64,000 nt of DNA from contig NZ_CP027727.1 of assembly GCF_003851685.1 (NCBI RefSeq), positions 2,232,001-2,296,000 of the forward strand. The letters are read 5' to 3'. The notes under the pieces were generated by a model. The model saw only the letters and a program-made list of their open reading frames with translations. It was not told the origin of the DNA and ran no database searches. Origin of the DNA: Pseudomonas sp. R5-89-07. Lineage in GTDB: Bacteria > Pseudomonadota > Gammaproteobacteria > Pseudomonadales > Pseudomonadaceae. Shown here in pieces: positions 1,551 to 64,000 of this stretch (positions are counted from its first letter, which is position 1; each line of letters begins with the position of its first letter). Position numbers and translations under genes: made by a program.

Positions 1551-4500
1551 TTATGGCGTGCGCTCGCTACCCGATTTACCTGACGCCAGGCGCTCGGTGC
1601 CTGGATTGAACAGCGACACGTAAAGCACAGGGATCAACCCCAGAGTCACCAATGTTCCCAGCGCGAGCCCGCCCATCAGCGTGATCGCCATGCCTTCCCA
1701 CAGTGGCCCGGCAAACAGCATCAGCGGGATCAGCCCGATGATGCAGGTCAACTTGGTCATGACGATAGGGCGCAGGCGTTTCACGGCCGCGTTCACCACC
1801 GCCTCATACACCGGCAGGCCAGCGTGGATTTCCGCCTCGATTCGTTCCAGCAGCAACACGGCGTTGTTGACGATGATCCCCGCCAAGGATAACAGGCCAA
1901 ACGTGGCCATGAAGCCAAACGGGTAGCCGGTGATCAACAGCGCGACCGCAACGCCAATCAATACAAAGGGGATTGCTGAGACCACGATCAGCAGCTTGCG
2001 GAACGAATTGAATTGCCAGACGAACAACAGCAGCATGGCGATCAATGCGTGGGGCAGGTACTGCAACAGCGCCTGGTTGGCGTCTGCCGAGTCTTCGATT
2101 TCGCCGCCCAACTCGATGCGGTAGCCCGGCGGTAAGGCCAGCGCAGCCACCTGTGGCGCCAGTTGCTCGACAATGGAGGTCGCAGTCAGCGAAGGGTTGT
2201 GCCCGACCACGGTGATGCTGCGTTCCTGATTGCGGCGGATCAGTGTGGAGGGTTCACTGGACGCGACGATGTGTGCAATGGCCATCAGCGGCAAAGGCGT
2301 CGAGCCGTCGGCCGGATAGACCAGAATGCCGCGCAGATCCGGCGAGTCGTGGTTGGTCGCAGCGGGTTCGCGCACCACCAGGGGTACGCGGGTTTCGTTA
2401 TCCTGCAGCGACGATACCTGGATGCCGCCGAAGTGCAGTTGCAAGGCCTGGGCAATGGCCTGGGTGTCCACCCCGGCACGGCGCGCTCGGTGCTGATCGA
2501 CCTCGACGGTATAGCGCGCCAGGCGTGTGCTCCAGTCATCGCGCACATCCAGCGTGCCCGGCACGTTACGCAGAGCCTTCTCAATCTGGCCGGCCAGCGA
2601 GCGCAGTAGGTTCTCGTCCGGGCCAATCACACGATAAATGGCGACACCGGCCTCGGTGGTTCCCAGGGAAAACCGTTTGGGCTCGGCGCGCAGCTCAGGG
2701 TGTTGTTTGAGCAGATAGCGACGCATATTGCCCATGACCGCTTCGATATCCGTCCCCGCCTTGACGCTGACGGTGAAGTAAGCGGTTTCCGGTGCCGGCA
2801 ACGGCGGGTTGAGGCCCAGCACGATACGCGGCCCGCCATCGCCCACGTAGCCGATGCTGTCGACCACCTGCGGTTCCTTGCTCAGCCACAGGCTGATTTC
2901 GCGCACGCTTTGCAAGGTACTGCGCGAGCCGCTGCCGGGCTCCAGGGCGATGGGCACCTGAAACTGCAACCGGTCCGACTGGGGCAGAAAGTCGTAGGGC
3001 ACACGCATCAGTTCGAAGAGGGCGGCGGCCAGTAGCACCAGCATGGCCATCAGAAACAGCGTCTTGTGTTGAAGCACCCGGCAGATGATGGCCCGATAAC
3101 CACGGTAAAAACTGCTGTTGTAGTTGCCCTCTGACGCTTCGCTGGGCGCAGCCTTGGCGAAATACAGGCACAGCAGGGGCGTAACCGTGATGCTCAGTAA
3201 CCACGAGCCGAGCAGGGTAAGTGCCAGCACGATGGCCAATGAGCGCAGGTATTCATTGGTGCTGGTCTGGCCAAGAAAGAACGGCGAGAAGGCCAGCACG
3301 ATCACCAGCGATGAGGTCAACAACGGTATTGCCAGGGTGCGTCCGGCTTCTTCGCAGGCCTGGCGCCGTTCCTCACCGGCCTGCAACCGGCGTTCGATGT
3401 CCTCGGCAATCACAATACCGTTGTCCACCAGCAAGCCGAGTGCGAGGATGATCGCGGCGATCGACACGGTTTGCAGCTCCACCCCCAGCATGCGCATGGC
3501 GATCAATGTACCCAGAATGGTCAGCGGTACGATGGCACCCACCACCAGCCCGGTGCGCCACCCCAGGAACAGCATGACCACGGCCATTACAATGACCACT
3601 GTCTCAATCATCACATGCTTCATTTTGGCCATTTGCTGATCGACCACATCGGCTTGAAACGTCACCATATGCGCCGAAAAGCCTAGCGGCAGTTGCTGTT
3701 CCAGCTGCGCCAAACGGGCGCGCAAGGCTGCGCCGAACTGATGAATGTTCTGCCCGGCAGCCATGGACACCGCCAGCACCACCGCGTCCTGGCCCTGGTA
3801 AACCGCGGCGGTCTGGGGTGGATCGGCGGCCATCACCGACACCTGCGCTATGGCACCTAGAGGTACGCTTTGCGCGCCGCCACTCGAATCAGGCAGTTGG
3901 ATGGGCAACTCGCGCAGTTGATCCACACTGAGCAGTTCGCCGGTCACGGTGAGGGTGGTGATCTGTCCGCCAATGTTGGCGACGCCAGCTGGCGCCAGGA
4001 CATTCTGTTGCTGCAATTGCTGGAACAGTTGTTGGGGAGACAAACCCAGGCCCGCCAGGCGCTGCGGGTTGAAATCAATCGAAAGCTGCTGGTCTTGGAT
4101 ACCGTGCAAGGTGACCTGGCCAATGCCGGGTATTCCCCCCAATTGATCGCGCAGGCGCTTCAACGGCCCGCGCATCTCGCTCATGCTGTAGCCCGGCGCG
4201 GTGACGGCAATGGAGGCGACAGCGACGCGCCCGAAATTGTCGTCGACAAACGGGCCTTGGGCGCCCGGCGGAAAGCCGGCACCCGCTTCGGCGACTTTAT
4301 TGCGTACCTGTTGCCACAGCACCCCGAGGTCCTTGATTTCATCGCGAGCCGTTACCTGGATCACCACGCTGCCGGGGTGGATGGTGGTCACGATGTTTTT
4401 GATCTGCGACAGCTCGCGCAGTTTTTCTTCCGTTGGACGCGCCAGCAGTTCTTCGGCACGTTCGCTGGGCAGCCCGGGGTACTGAATACTCACCAGTGCG

Positions 4501-16993: not shown

Positions 16994-18310
16994 ATGGTTG
17001 CCATGACTGGCGATATTGCGCTCGCGCGCAGCGAAGAAACCATTAACGAACTGCTGCTCTATCGGCGCGTGGCCTGGCGCATTATGCCGCTGGCCATTAT
17101 CTGCTTTTTGTTTTCCTATTTTGACCGGATCAACATCAGCTTCGCCAAGACCCAGATGCAGCATGAACTGGGCTTGAGCGACGCGGCGTATGGCCTGGCC
17201 GCGAGCATGTTCTTCATTGGCTATGTGCTGTTCGAAGTACCCAGCAGCCTGGGCCTCAAACGCTACGGCGCGCCGGCCTGGATCTGCCGGATCATGGTCT
17301 CCTGGGGCCTGGCCACGGCAGCGATGATGTTCGCCTACACCCAATACACGCTCTACTTCTTGCGCTTCCTGATTGGCGTAATGGAAGCCGGCTTCGGCCC
17401 GGCGATCCTGTTCTATCTGGCGTGCTGGTTCCCGAAAAAACACTTGGCGAAGATGAACGGCCTGTGGTTCCTGTCGGTGCCCCTGGCAGGTGCAGTCGGC
17501 GGGCCGGCTGCGGGAATCCTGTTGGGTACGATGGACGGCGTGTTCGGCCTGGCCGGCTGGCACTGGTTGTTCCTGATGTCCGGATTGCCGTGTGTCGTAT
17601 TGGGCGTGCTGGTGTTGTGGAAACTGGACCGGGACATCGAGTCGGCCAAGTGGCTCAGCCGCAGCGAGAAAGACCTGCTGGCGGCCAATCTCGAGCATGA
17701 CAAAGTCAACCAGAAGCCGGTGCTGGGCTCTCTGTGGCGCGTATTGTTGACGTGGGAAGTCGCGGTCATGGCGTTCATTTACTTCGTGATCAAGTCCGCT
17801 TCCTATGGCCTTAATTTCTGGATGCCACACCTGATCAAATCTTCCGGCATCCAAAGCCTGTTGTGGGTCGGGATGTTCTCGGCGCTGCCCTACATCGTCG
17901 CGTGCATCGGCATGATCTGGCTCACCCGGCGCTCCGATCGAACCGGCGAGCGTAAAACTTATCTGGTCATGTGCCTGATTGCAGCAGCAGTCGGCTATCT
18001 CTTGGCCTGCCTGTTCTCGGACTCATCCTGGGCAATGATGGCAGCGCTCGTACTGGCTACCGCCGGCACCTTTATTGCGATCCCGATTTTCTGGACGATT
18101 CCGCAATCGACCTTTTCGGGATTGGCGGTCGCGACGGGAACGGCGGCGATCAACTCCATCGGTCAACTTAGCGGCATGGTTGCGCCTGTGATGGTGGGCA
18201 AGATCAACGATCTGTCGGGCTCAACCTACATGGGCATGCTCTCCATTGCCCCGCTGATTCTGATCGCCTGTTTCGTTGTGATGCGCTTTGTCCGTAACCC
18301 CAAAACTTGA
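16994..18310 (+). CDS. MFS permease, anion:cation symporter type
   Basis: 438 residues with 12 predicted membrane segments and a cytoplasmic N-terminus. SYFDRINISFAKTQM in TM1 and GYVLFEVPSSLGLKRYGAPAWICRIMVSWGLA in TM2-TM3 are hallmarks of the ACS (phthalate, tartrate, glucarate) subgroup of organic acid importers. GGAG lies before the ATG. As last gene of the LysR-lyase-transferase cluster it probably imports the acid that the cluster degrades. Confidence 0.9.
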   Translation: MVAMTGDIALARSEETINELLLYRRVAWRIMPLAIICFLFSYFDRINISFAKTQMQHELGLSDAAYGLAASMFFIGYVLFEVPSSLGLKRYGAPAWICRIMVSWGLATAAMMFAYTQYTLYFLRFLIGVMEAGFGPAILFYLACWFPKKHLAKMNGLWFLSVPLAGAVGGPAAGILLGTMDGVFGLAGWHWLFLMSGLPCVVLGVLVLWKLDRDIESAKWLSRSEKDLLAANLEHDKVNQKPVLGSLWRVLLTWEVAVMAFIYFVIKSASYGLNFWMPHLIKSSGIQSLLWVGMFSALPYIVACIGMIWLTRRSDRTGERKTYLVMCLIAAAVGYLLACLFSDSSWAMMAALVLATAGTFIAIPIFWTIPQSTFSGLAVATGTAAINSIGQLSGMVAPVMVGKINDLSGSTYMGMLSIAPLILIACFVVMRFVRNPKT

Positions 18311-18611
18311 GGTGTTCAGAAGTATTTTCAATACTGATAATCACAGCGCCATCTCATACCGGATTAACAGACGCTGAGCTCGGTGTGCGCGTAAGTTAAA
18401 GGAGAGAAGGGTTTGCCTTTTCTGCGATTTGGCGGGAATAGATCGGTGTCACGCAAATTGGTCTTTCTACAAATGGCGTCCAGGGCTCTTGCCAAGGGCA
18501 TGAGCAAACGGGTTTATTTTTTCCTTAGTGCCGTACACTTCGTTAGAATTGCCGCCTTCACGTGCCGTGCCACCTCTACCTGCCCACCCGATGACGCTTA
18601 CAGGGATCGCA
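18311..18611. other. Gap upstream of the MATE gene, no gene seen
   Basis: 301 bases. A small inverted repeat AGTATT-TTC-AATACT lies just after the MFS stop (near 18330-18344), without a T-tract. Near 18560 there is AT-rich sequence suitable for a promoter of the MATE gene. A TTG-started frame from 18413 has an AAGGAGAG-like site but only yields low-complexity sequence that overlaps the MATE gene. Confidence 0.4.
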
Positions 18612-19973
18612 ATGCCAAGCAGCTACGCGCGTTTTACCCGCGCCAGCATCCCGCGACATGTGACGGTGATGGCCGGTTCCAGTGCCGTGAGCCTGTTCGC
18701 GGTGTTCCTGGTGGATATTTTCACGCTGGTGTACGTGTCCATGCTGCACCAGCCGGTCCTGCTGGCCGCGGTCGGCATCGCCAAAGTGTTGATCTTTTTC
18801 AACGGCGCGCTGGCCAATGGGTTGATTATCGCGGCGGCGTCGGTGCTGTCCGAGCGCATCGGCCACCGGGCGAGGCAGACGGTGCCACACCTCACTGCGT
18901 GCCTGATGCTCATGGTGGTGGCGGTTTCCGGGCTGTGCGCGGCTGTGCAGTTGGCGCTGGTGGCCCCGATCACCCACTGGCTGGGCGCACAGGATGAGGT
19001 GTACGAGGCGGCGCGCCGTTTTATCTGGCTGACGCTGCCGTTCACGGTCGCGCAAGCGGCGATGCAAATGGCAGCGCAGATGCTCAGGAGCGCCGGCGAC
19101 AGCCGCAGGGCATTCTGGGTGGTGCTCTCGGGAGCGGCGACATTGGCAGCGGCAGACCCGCTGCTGATCTTCGAGCTCGGCCTGGGGCTGGATGGCGCGG
19201 GGATCGCCTACGCGTTGTCGGCGCTGGTGTCGGCCGGGCTGGGCATCTATTGGGTACGGCAGCACATCGGCCTGGCGACGGCTGTCAGTCTCAAGCGGCT
19301 GCGGCTGTACGGGCTTCGCATCGCACGGGTGGCCTTACCGGCAACGCTTGCCAATATGGCGACGCCGGTCGGCGTGGCTTATCTGGTGTCGACTGTCTCG
19401 GTCTACGGCACTTCGGCCCTCGCGGCGATGGCGGTGCTGGACCGGGTCATGCAGTTTTCGTTCTGTGCCTTTTTTGCCCTGCCCAGTGCCCTGGCGCCGG
19501 TGTTGGGCCAGAACATCGGTGCCCAGCAGCCTTTGCGCGTGCAGGCGGCCATCGTGTTCACGCGGCGCCTGGTGATTGCCTATGGTTTGGGTGTCTGGGC
19601 TGTATTGCTGGCGTCATGCGCTATGATTGCCGACTTTTATGGTCTGGAAGGCGAGGGGCGTGAACTGTTCCTCGTGTTCTGCCGAGTAGGCGCGGGCCTT
19701 TGGGTGATCATCGGCCTGGACTTCGTCGCGATTGCCGTGTTTGTGACCATGCAGCGTGCCTGGCTGGTGGCGGTCTTCGCCTGGTTGCGCGCAACCCTCG
19801 GCACGCTGCCGTTCGTGTATGTAGGCACACACTCGTTTGGCAGCAGCGGAGCAATGCCCGGCATGTTTCTGGGCAACGCGCTGATCGCGGTGATGTCGAC
19901 GGTCACCGCCACGGTGGTCGCACGCAGGTTTTTGTCGGGAAGGGCCCAGCCAGGCAGTGCTGGGATAAGTTGA
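18612..19973 (+). CDS. MATE family multidrug/metabolite exporter
   Basis: 453 residues from the ATG at 18612, preceded by AGGGA; an earlier in-frame ATG at 18591 lacks a site. Twelve membrane helices in two homologous halves: the first has LVDIFTLVYVSMLHQPVLLAAVGIAKVLIFF, ANGLIIAAASVLSERIG and MQMAAQMLRSAGDSRRAFW; the second has ALAAMAVLDRVMQFSFCAFFALPSALAPVLGQNIGAQQ, the typical MATE repeat. NorM/DinF-type proteins exchange Na+ or H+ for cationic drugs. A TetR gene follows 22 bases downstream on the same strand and may regulate it. Confidence 0.9.
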   Translation: MPSSYARFTRASIPRHVTVMAGSSAVSLFAVFLVDIFTLVYVSMLHQPVLLAAVGIAKVLIFFNGALANGLIIAAASVLSERIGHRARQTVPHLTACLMLMVVAVSGLCAAVQLALVAPITHWLGAQDEVYEAARRFIWLTLPFTVAQAAMQMAAQMLRSAGDSRRAFWVVLSGAATLAAADPLLIFELGLGLDGAGIAYALSALVSAGLGIYWVRQHIGLATAVSLKRLRLYGLRIARVALPATLANMATPVGVAYLVSTVSVYGTSALAAMAVLDRVMQFSFCAFFALPSALAPVLGQNIGAQQPLRVQAAIVFTRRLVIAYGLGVWAVLLASCAMIADFYGLEGEGRELFLVFCRVGAGLWVIIGLDFVAIAVFVTMQRAWLVAVFAWLRATLGTLPFVYVGTHSFGSSGAMPGMFLGNALIAVMSTVTATVVARRFLSGRAQPGSAGIS

Positions 19974-61693: not shown

Positions 61694-62968
61694 TTACTTG
61701 AGCGTCACATCCAGCATCGGCGGAATGAACCCGTAGTCATATTCGGCGACCACGAATGTTTGCTGCCCTTTGATCTTGATGCCGACGGTCGGTGCCTCGG
61801 TGCCACCGATGCGCATCTGTTTACCGTCTTCGCCAGCAGGGACGCTGTCGATGAAGGAGGTCACCAGGCCGTTGGGCATCACGCAGTGCGAGTAGGTCTG
61901 GAACGGCTGGGAAGAGGGGTTGCCCAGGACCAGGCCGGAACCGTTCAACGGCACGTAAGGGCCGAACAACGAGTCCGCGACAAAACCGTATACCCCGTCG
62001 GGCCCGGTTACGCCGTCGCCGTAGGTGAAGGTGTGGCTGATGGTGAACAGGTAATACTTACCGTCCTGGAACACGAAGTGCGGACGTTCGGTCTGGTCGT
62101 TGACGCCGACCGCGGTGAGCAGCGGCGGCAGCATTTCCCAGTCGTCGCCATCCTCGTCTCGGGCCACGGCGATACCGACGCACGCGGTCTGGTAGCGCGA
62201 GTTGCCGACGTCTTCATGACCCGGCGGCACGTCGCCGATTTCTGCTTTGCCCACCTTGTGCGATCCACGCTCGCCGGCCACGTTGCCCTCGAACAGCATG
62301 TACAGCTTGCCGTCCTTCGGGTCGCGGAACGGCCACGGATCGCGGAAACCCCAGAAGGCGTTCTGCGCTTCGGTCTGGTACATCTTGCCGTCGGCTTCGA
62401 ACAGCGGCTTGACCTTCTCGAAGCCCACCAGGCTGACGCCATGCTCGGTGGTCACCACGCGACCACGCACCTTGACGATGGTCGCGCCGGGTGTGACGGC
62501 GGTGTAGTACAGGTCAATTTCACCTTGCTCATTCAACAGGATCGGCGTGCCGGCCCATTCGCGCACCGTCGGCGAAACCCCTTCAGCCATGACTCGGCCG
62601 CCGAGTTTCCAGTCCTTGCCGGTGCGGGAGAACCAGTAGTACATCTTTGCCCGACCGTGGCGATCATTCCAGTCGCGGGTGATGTCGTAGTTACCGTTCT
62701 GATCGAGGTATTGCGGGTCATTCGGGTGACGATCCGCGGTCAGGGTGAAGATCACCGACCAGCCATCGACGGAGGTGATATTGCCGTCGAGGTCACGCAG
62801 CGGCATGGTGTCCCAGATAAACACCTTGTCGCTCAGGACCGGGAAGTCGGCACTGACCAGTGGCTGGGTGGTGGTGGGATCGTCTGCGTGCACTTTCAGC
62901 GCATCGGCGCGAGTCCACAGGCTGGGTTGATGGGGTGTTTTACCAAATGTCGCGGTGGTGCTTTTCAT
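61694..62968 (-). CDS. lsc: Levansucrase (glycoside hydrolase family 68)
   Basis: 424 residues from the ATG at 62968, with GAGG eight bases upstream; six codons further upstream the frame lacks a site. Five-blade propeller of GH68: nucleophile Asp53 (FIWDTMPLR), transition-state Asp210 (GFRDPWPF) and acid/base Glu294 (QTERPHF). These are spaced as in P. syringae Lsc3 (D62/D219/E303, recalled). It splits sucrose and polymerises fructose to levan. There is no signal peptide, as known for Pseudomonas levansucrases, which leave the cell by an unresolved route. The promoter carries a LexA box. Neighbour galE is on the same strand. Confidence 0.96.
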
Positions 62969-63000
62969 AGGGAAAACCTCGTCCATGAAGGTTGGTTGAA

Positions 63001-63020
63001 TACTGTATTTATATACAGTG
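63001..63020 (-). promoter_or_regulatory. LexA (SOS) box in the levansucrase promoter
   Basis: TACTGTATTTATATACAGTG, which fits CTGT-N8-ACAG exactly and differs from the E. coli-type consensus TACTGTATATATATACAGTA at two positions. It sits 33-52 bases upstream of the lsc ATG and just downstream of the -10, where bound LexA would block transcription. Confidence 0.8.
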
Positions 63021-63025
63021 AGTTC

Positions 63026-63054
63026 ACTTTAGAAGGGTCCTTCCTTCGGGTCAA
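63026..63054 (-). promoter_or_regulatory. Sigma-70 promoter of levansucrase
   Basis: On the minus strand: -35 TTGACC (63054-63049), exactly 17 bases, -10 TAAAGT (63031-63026). The start of transcription would fall near 63018-63020, inside the LexA box. Upstream, ATGCAT is repeated at 63063-63068 and 63071-63076 as a 14-base palindrome in an AT-rich patch. Confidence 0.65.
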
Positions 63055-63160
63055 GCAGAAAAATGCATTTATGCATAATCGAGGTTTTTGTCGTAGCTGA
63101 TTCGTTTCACTAATGGAGATAGCCCCAATATTGTCTCTGCGTATTGGGGCAGCTCGTTCA

Positions 63161-64000
63161 TTAATTGGCCTGCCGCACCTCCTCATGCCGATGCTGGTTG
63201 CACTGCCAGCGCCAGGCATCGGCCAGCATGCTTTCCAATGAGTGACGCGCCTGCCAGCCCAGCTCTTCGATTGACTTTTGCGGGTCGGCCCAGCAGCAGG
63301 CGATATCCCCTGGCCGGCGCGCTTCGAAGGTCATGGGTATGTGCACACCGGTGACTCTTTCGAAAGCCTTGATCACCTCCAGCACCGAATACCCACGCCC
63401 CGTTCCCAGGTTCCACACACTGATACCACGCCGCTCGCGCAGCGCTTCGAGCGCGCAGGTATGGCCCTGCGCCAGGTCGACGACATGGATGTAATCGCGA
63501 ACGCCGGTGCCGTCCGGGGTTGGGTAGTCTCGGCCGTAAACCGACAACGCCTGACGTTCGCCGCTGGCAACTTGCAGCAAATAGGGCAGCAGATTATTCG
63601 GTGTACTGGTCGGTGCCTCGCCCAGCAAACCGGAAGCGTGGGCGCCGATGGGGTTGAAGTAGCGCAGCAGGCCTATCGACCAGCGCGGGTCGGCGCCGGC
63701 CACGCTTTTCATCACGTTTTCACACATCAATTTGGACATGCCGTACGGGTTGGTCGGCTGCCCGGTGGTGCACGTCTCGCTGATGGGCATGCTCGTGCAG
63801 TCCCCGTACACGGTGGCCGATGAACTGAACACCAGCCTGAACACACCCGCCTGCGCCATGGCCTGGCAAAGCACCACGCTGCCGCCGACATTGGTGTCGT
63901 AATAGCGCAACGGCTCGCGCACGCTTTCACCGACGGCTTTCAACCCTGCGCAGTGCACCACCGCGTCAATCGGGTAGTCGCGCAACAGCGTGTCGAGCAA
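63161..64000 (-). CDS. galE: UDP-glucose 4-epimerase, 5' end missing
   Basis: 279 residues are present; the N-terminal ~65 residues with the NAD-binding GxxGxxG motif lie beyond the right edge. Seen: VVHCAGLKAVGESVREPLRYYDTNV, catalytic FSSSATVYG and NPYGMSK (Tyr-x3-Lys), LRYFNPIGAHASGLLGE, YPTPDGTGVRDYIHVVDLAQGH and NLGTGRGYSVLEVI. This is the full GalE series. It interconverts UDP-glucose and UDP-galactose for surface polysaccharides. Its stop is 193 bases upstream of the lsc start, with the LexA-type promoter between. Confidence 0.93.
   Translation of the reverse strand: MLDTLLRDYPIDAVVHCAGLKAVGESVREPLRYYDTNVGGSVVLCQAMAQAGVFRLVFSSSATVYGDCTSMPISETCTTGQPTNPYGMSKLMCENVMKSVAGADPRWSIGLLRYFNPIGAHASGLLGEAPTSTPNNLLPYLLQVASGERQALSVYGRDYPTPDGTGVRDYIHVVDLAQGHTCALEALRERRGISVWNLGTGRGYSVLEVIKAFERVTGVHIPMTFEARRPGDIACCWADPQKSIEELGWQARHSLESMLADAWRWQCNQHRHEEVRQAN

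Follow-up and report, generated by a model that had tools for sequence, protein, structure and literature searches.

The window (the whole stretch of DNA that was analysed, 64,000 nucleotides in length) contains the gene lsc on the reverse strand. The gene, its promoter and the sites ahead of the promoter are as follows:

61694 to 62968, minus strand: lsc, GH68 levansucrase (PF02435), 424 amino acid residues from the ATG at 62968
62977 to 62984, minus strand: purine-rich GGACGAGG, putative ribosome-binding stretch, judged by its sequence and distance
63001 to 63020, minus strand: predicted LexA operator CACTGTATATAAATACAGTA, approximately the first 20 bases past the predicted start site, 18 of 20 positions as in the consensus
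63026 to 63031, minus strand: predicted -10 element TAAAGT, by consensus match
63049 to 63054, minus strand: predicted -35 element TTGACC, by consensus match, with a spacer of 17 bp
63063 to 63076, no strand assigned: dyad ATGCATTTATGCAT, putative operator, by its conservation in group-1 promoters
63098 to 63109, minus strand: TGAAACGAATCA, putative operator of the Cra/FruR-like (LacI-family) type, by conservation and resemblance

Judged by its domain match, the product of lsc is a GH68 levansucrase, in agreement with the preliminary description of this DNA: an open reading frame of 430 residues matches PF02435 with E = 4.5e-153 and 510.6 bits, the cut-off being 27. This longer frame opens with an ATG at 62986. 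The codon reads AAG in some orthologues and therefore translation most likely starts at the ATG at 62968, which is kept throughout the group-1 alignment presented below. The purine-rich stretch GGACGAGG is mostly kept across the same alignment. At the N-terminus of the protein no hydrophobic signal stretch is visible by eye. An open reading frame at 63161-64000 on the same strand, which we take from its sequence to be galE-like, has its stop 106 bp upstream of the lsc -35 element.

The preliminary description had placed a promoter TTGACC-17-TAAAGT before lsc and an almost perfect LexA operator at the expected start site. Both are found on the lsc strand, the promoter elements at 63049-63054 and 63026-63031 and the box at 63001-63020, where the forward strand reads TACTGTATTTATATACAGTG and the lsc strand CACTGTATATAAATACAGTA. 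The box begins 5 bp past the predicted -10 element and is separated from the ATG at 62968 by 32 bp. Transcription is predicted to start approximately 50 bp upstream of this ATG.

The 20-mer was compared with the LexA consensus TACTGTATATATATACAGTA. It agrees at 18 of 20 positions, against 12 for the runner-up in the 64-kb window. Simulation of 20,000 stretches, each of 200 bp and of the local composition, yielded a score of 16 once and a score of 18 never. The loose pattern CTGT-N8-ACAG is not significant in the window, with one occurrence against 0.60 expected and at least one in 44 of 100 shuffles. The 6.0-Mb genome contains seven sites within three mismatches of TACTGTATATATATACAGTA and none for a reversed control pattern. 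The lsc box and a box before a PA0069-family radical SAM gene are the joint best of these, with two mismatches each, and another site precedes yebG (PF07130). The other four precede or adjoin genes that are here without a known SOS role: the genes of a 385-residue protein and of a protein cut at 329 residues (no NCBIfam match for the cut protein), a DUF7946/7947 gene and a DUF1654 gene. Less consensus-like boxes of this class are located before lexA (two), recN, dinB and an umuD-like gene of this genome. The genome also encodes LexA (TIGR00498, E = 1.2e-75, over the cut-off).

This promoter can be compared with those of related levansucrase genes, which are present in 63 of the 398 Pseudomonas genomes searched. 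The matches are of two types, group 1 with 88-100% identity to the window protein and group 2 with 73-76%. Group 1 comprises 32 loci, of which 31 were assessed; the G169 fragment, without upstream sequence, was left out. Further rows left out were L108, with its upstream sequence masked, and in group 2 the second G309 copy and the short G380, G326 and G056 fragments. In all 31 assessed loci the best upstream 20-mer has the form CTG-N10-CAG and scores between 14 and 18 of 20, and this form emerged without being required by the search. Every box has C and G as its outer letters, never T and A. The centre is free to vary, with 25 distinct boxes over the 31 loci, ten of which score just 14-15. A variant with CCAG, found in five boxes, also occurs before recN. 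The box lies 5-7 bp past the -10 element in 29 loci, and the alignment has the same layout for L010 and L012; the TTGA core at the -35 position is present in all 31. The identity averages 98% over the 12 half-site positions, 53% over 11 spacer columns and 64% over 10 downstream columns, counted in an ungapped alignment anchored at the box, in which shifts depress the flank values.

The named Pseudomonas genomes give the same picture: wherever the DNA upstream of the levansucrase gene was readable, at 25 of 25 loci, the box is present. This set shares genomes with the 31 loci, so that the two counts are not additive. In 14 Enterobacterales loci (Brenneria, Pectobacterium, Rahnella, Erwinia, Ewingella and Hafnia) no CTG-N10-CAG was found within up to 450 bp upstream of the levansucrase gene, two of these stretches being shorter than 250 bp. 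The question of whether the box is lost from close lsc relatives, raised in the preliminary description, has a clear answer among the assessed group-1 loci, all of which keep it. The features by which a member of the SOS regulon is recognized, namely a near-consensus CTG-N10-CAG, its overlap with a predicted promoter, its conservation and a host LexA, are found together at lsc.

It is highly probable from this arrangement of sites that LexA represses lsc, that DNA damage releases the repression and that the gene belongs to the SOS regulon. In a sigma70-type promoter, a LexA dimer on the box would occupy roughly positions +1 to +20 and would prevent initiation. Activation of RecA by DNA damage would lead to self-cleavage of LexA and to synthesis of levansucrase, which would then form levan wherever sucrose is present. 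What has been observed is the sites, how conserved and how rare they are, and kindred boxes ahead of known SOS genes of this genome; the binding of LexA, the induction by damage and the functions assigned to both upstream sites are inferred.

The first of these upstream sites, TGAAACGnnTCA, is located 75-80 bp ahead of the box in 31 of 31 group-1 promoters, all of which contain TGAAACG..TCA. It resembles Cra/FruR operators and probably supplies a fructose signal. Such an input would fit a levansucrase. The genome has three occurrences of the sequence TGAAACGWWTCA, one of them about 100 bp before a gene resembling those of sugar ABC transporter ATPases, with scores below their curated cut-offs. 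The second site is an ATGCAT dyad, which probably supplies a further, phage-like signal. The form ATGCAyAAATGCA is found in 29 of the 31 group-1 promoters at 40-44 bp before the 20-mer, and the dyad ATGCATnnATGCAT of the window lies 42 bp ahead of it.

Expression data are available for P. chlororaphis 30-84, where RNA-seq compared phenazine producers with a non-producer, which is not a plain damage treatment (PMC4727817). The lsc gene was raised 3.9- and 12.0-fold, alongside recN (2.3 and 3.8), lexA (2.0 and 2.7), lexA2 (2.6 and 5.1) and dnaE2 (2.2 and 5.2) (PMC4727817). The R-tailocin cluster was raised as well, by 2.5-3.6 and 4.7-8.7 among the rows listed, with the exception of cinA at 1.6 (not significant) and 2.6 (PMC4727817). 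Chitinases, aprA and prn genes were likewise raised (PMC4727817). The terms SOS, recA and DNA damage do not occur in the main text of PMC4727817. P. chlororaphis was sought by its phz and prn genes, with phz scanned in 25 and 2 genomes and prn in 49 of the 63 lsc genomes; no genome scanned for both had the two, and the box was thus not seen in this species. In the accessible parts of the literature on levansucrase or levan together with LexA, the SOS response or mitomycin, no LexA control of levansucrase was found, and it is absent from the accessible sections of PMC4727817, PMC6240691 and PMC7822408. The same holds for LexA-binding or damage experiments in the accessible literature on lsc, and the literature on LscR and on PA0069 with LexA gave nothing useful. 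In one relative (G006:C110), lsc occupies 2565-3854 and phzA/B-type genes lie about 14 kb away, at 17997-18979. This proximity is of note in view of the rise of lsc with phenazine production in P. chlororaphis.

The group-2 levansucrase genes have a different promoter arrangement. Among 40 loci, each examined over 700 bp upstream, a LexA-type box of the pattern TACTGTATATAA[AG]CACAGT[GA] is found in five, reading TACTGTATATAAACACAGTG and once GCACAGTA. In these five loci the promoter is TTGACG, 17 bp, TACTGT, and its -10 element falls inside the box. The other 35 have no LexA box, and three of them contain a CTG-N10-CAG far from the consensus. An interrupted inverted repeat, CACTGTATTTATA-TCAAGGA-TATAAATACAGTG or a close variant, with 13-bp arms and a 7-bp gap, is present in 16 of the 40. 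It is located about 205-225 bp before the group-2 lsc start, for example at L148:478-510. The half-sites of this repeat resemble those of LexA, while its spacing is unsuited to LexA, and a different protein that recognizes half-sites of this kind may be at work there.

A protein tree of 70 rows (31 of group 1, 25 of the 40 of group 2 and 14 of Enterobacterales) was built by a quick method with SH-aLRT support only and a midpoint root. The enzymes of Brenneria and Pectobacterium and three of those from Rahnella join group 1; those of Erwinia, Ewingella and Hafnia and one from Rahnella join group 2. The distribution of the box needs two changes on this tree. Because the tree splits the groups and two changes are needed, it appears probable that the two levansucrase types entered Pseudomonas separately and that the LexA box was gained by each. 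This suggests that the formation of levan under DNA damage pays. The lsc gene would then probably be an addition to the SOS regulon, with an unusual product, recruited twice.

The palindrome could also be the operator of another repressor that recognizes CTGTAT half-sites, either a prophage S24-type repressor or a sugar regulator, LexA being uninvolved. The interrupted repeats of the 16 group-2 loci are in favor of such a protein, and the genome has a phage-type repressor gene with an S24 peptidase that is itself preceded by a similar box (L052). However, the CTG-N10-CAG spacing is kept in every assessed group-1 locus and appears again in five group-2 loci, the CCAG variant is shared with recN, and in P. 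chlororaphis lsc rises together with lexA, recN and dnaE2 (PMC4727817). We consider this explanation improbable. For P. syringae it has been reported that a hexR mutant has higher lsc, and the inner part of the box, TGT...ACA, recurs in the HexR motif TTGT-N7-8-ACAA (PMC4357207). An operator of HexR would nevertheless require T and A at the outer positions; all 31 assessed loci have C and G there, and the motif is thus not matched. In addition, the site predicted in P. syringae does not overlie the promoter but is given as +113 to +127 relative to the translational start (PMC4357207). HexR was rejected on these grounds as a very improbable candidate. Control by LexA remains the preferred explanation of the box.

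A separate matter is the origin of the promoter. The preliminary description suggested a captured prophage promoter and pointed to the phage-associated element of P. syringae. In the genome the pattern ATGCAYWWATGCAT occurs at three places: before lsc, before the DUF1654 gene and in a tandem run. The LexA box follows the dyad at the identical gap of 42 bp at lsc and at the DUF1654 gene, where the pair is located at C1 near 3144085 (L063:1443-1536). In viral contigs, with 40-47 bp allowed between dyad and box, at least 60 stretches were found (L205-L264). Those listed all have 43-45 bp, and 57 of the 60 listed are confirmed ahead of a DUF1654 homologue (phrog_2707); a pattern with a longer gap has no match in viral contigs. 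These observations are consistent with descent of the lsc promoter, LexA box included, from one that drove a DUF1654 gene in a phage. However, the intervening DNA is not alike: between 17 lsc spacers (those with a 44-bp gap, of 29 dyad-bearing promoters) and 14 phage spacers (every fourth of 53) there are 11.4 identities, as compared with 11.2 +/- 1.7 after permutation of columns, and 224 of 500 permutations were as high. The phage promoter, TTGCCA-17-TACTGT, also differs in the positions of its -35 and -10 elements, the latter falling inside the box; no Cra-like site was found in it, and in viral contigs the combination of Cra-like site and dyad gave no match. The alignment with phage promoters proposed earlier gave by blastn against phage records a single match with E = 0.7, which was taken as noise. 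Of the proposed capture, the layout of dyad and box in common with the phage gene is thus borne out and the similarity of the DNA between them is not; we regard a capture as possible and rather doubtful. It would be compatible with LexA control of lsc. The shared layout may reflect a common regulator, or an old capture with a changed spacer.

The link to the P. syringae element has to be judged differently. There, lscB and lscC are driven by PAPE, a phage-associated element of about 500 bp that includes the com gene and has its start site 339 bp upstream (PMC3973379, PMC3899960). The promoter in the window resembles PAPE in driving an enzyme of the same family (PMC3973379, PMC3899960) and in its phage connection, but it is compact and without com, the 32 bp between box and start codon leaving no room for this gene. 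A com-type open reading frame is found in seven of the 40 group-2 loci, all without CTG-N10-CAG in the 700 bp upstream; the one such frame that was scanned contains PF10122. The link to PAPE fails because the com-type loci are without the box and because com has no space here, and a PAPE origin of this promoter, which was rejected, has almost no probability. Therefore, of the earlier interpretation, the part concerning PAPE has to be abandoned. The part concerning a LexA operator over a sigma70-type promoter is sustained: the box is conserved, it was probably gained a second time and it resembles the boxes of SOS genes.

The ATGCAT dyad common to lsc and the DUF1654 gene points to an undescribed regulator serving both a bacterial and a phage gene. 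The third place of the dyad in the genome is a tandem run of the unit ATGCATTT at C1:3528852-3528881 (L182-L184), with no CTG-N10-CAG near it. A literature search for DUF1654 led to work on a temperate P. aeruginosa phage.

Most known targets of the SOS response serve repair, mutagenesis, prophages or bacteriocins. The box of lsc resembles the LexA/SOS operators of gamma-proteobacteria as a near-consensus CTG-N10-CAG over a sigma70-type promoter. However, the product makes an extracellular polysaccharide and lies outside the classes of repair, mutagenesis, bacteriocin and prophage proteins, and two extra conserved operator-like sites are present upstream. An exopolysaccharide enzyme is an unusual SOS target. 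If the assignment of lsc is true, oxidative or antibiotic stress, tailocin lysis and the building of the matrix would be linked in pseudomonads.

Colicins and the pyocins or tailocins are SOS-controlled released products (PMC6240691). The levansucrase could be compared with them as a released product under the control of DNA damage. It differs in being a sucrose-using enzyme, and no lysis gene was seen directly adjoining lsc in the window. The lsc gene might belong to the prophage and tailocin arm of the SOS response, and enzyme from lysing damaged cells, released with tailocins and DNA, might build levan round the survivors. We propose this reading because the lsc promoter pairs a LexA box with the dyad of a phage gene and because the protein has no obvious signal peptide; it is speculative and on the whole unlikely.

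Two of the other near-consensus boxes of the genome may be added. The box at C1:3141890-3141909 (L062:1499-1518) is located directly before the DUF7946/DUF7947 gene, and the DUF1654 gene lies about 2.2 kb away. The box at C1:1069617-1069636 (L001:1499-1518) precedes the gene of the 385-residue protein. This protein has no Pfam or NCBIfam match, and its gene is a possible further SOS gene.
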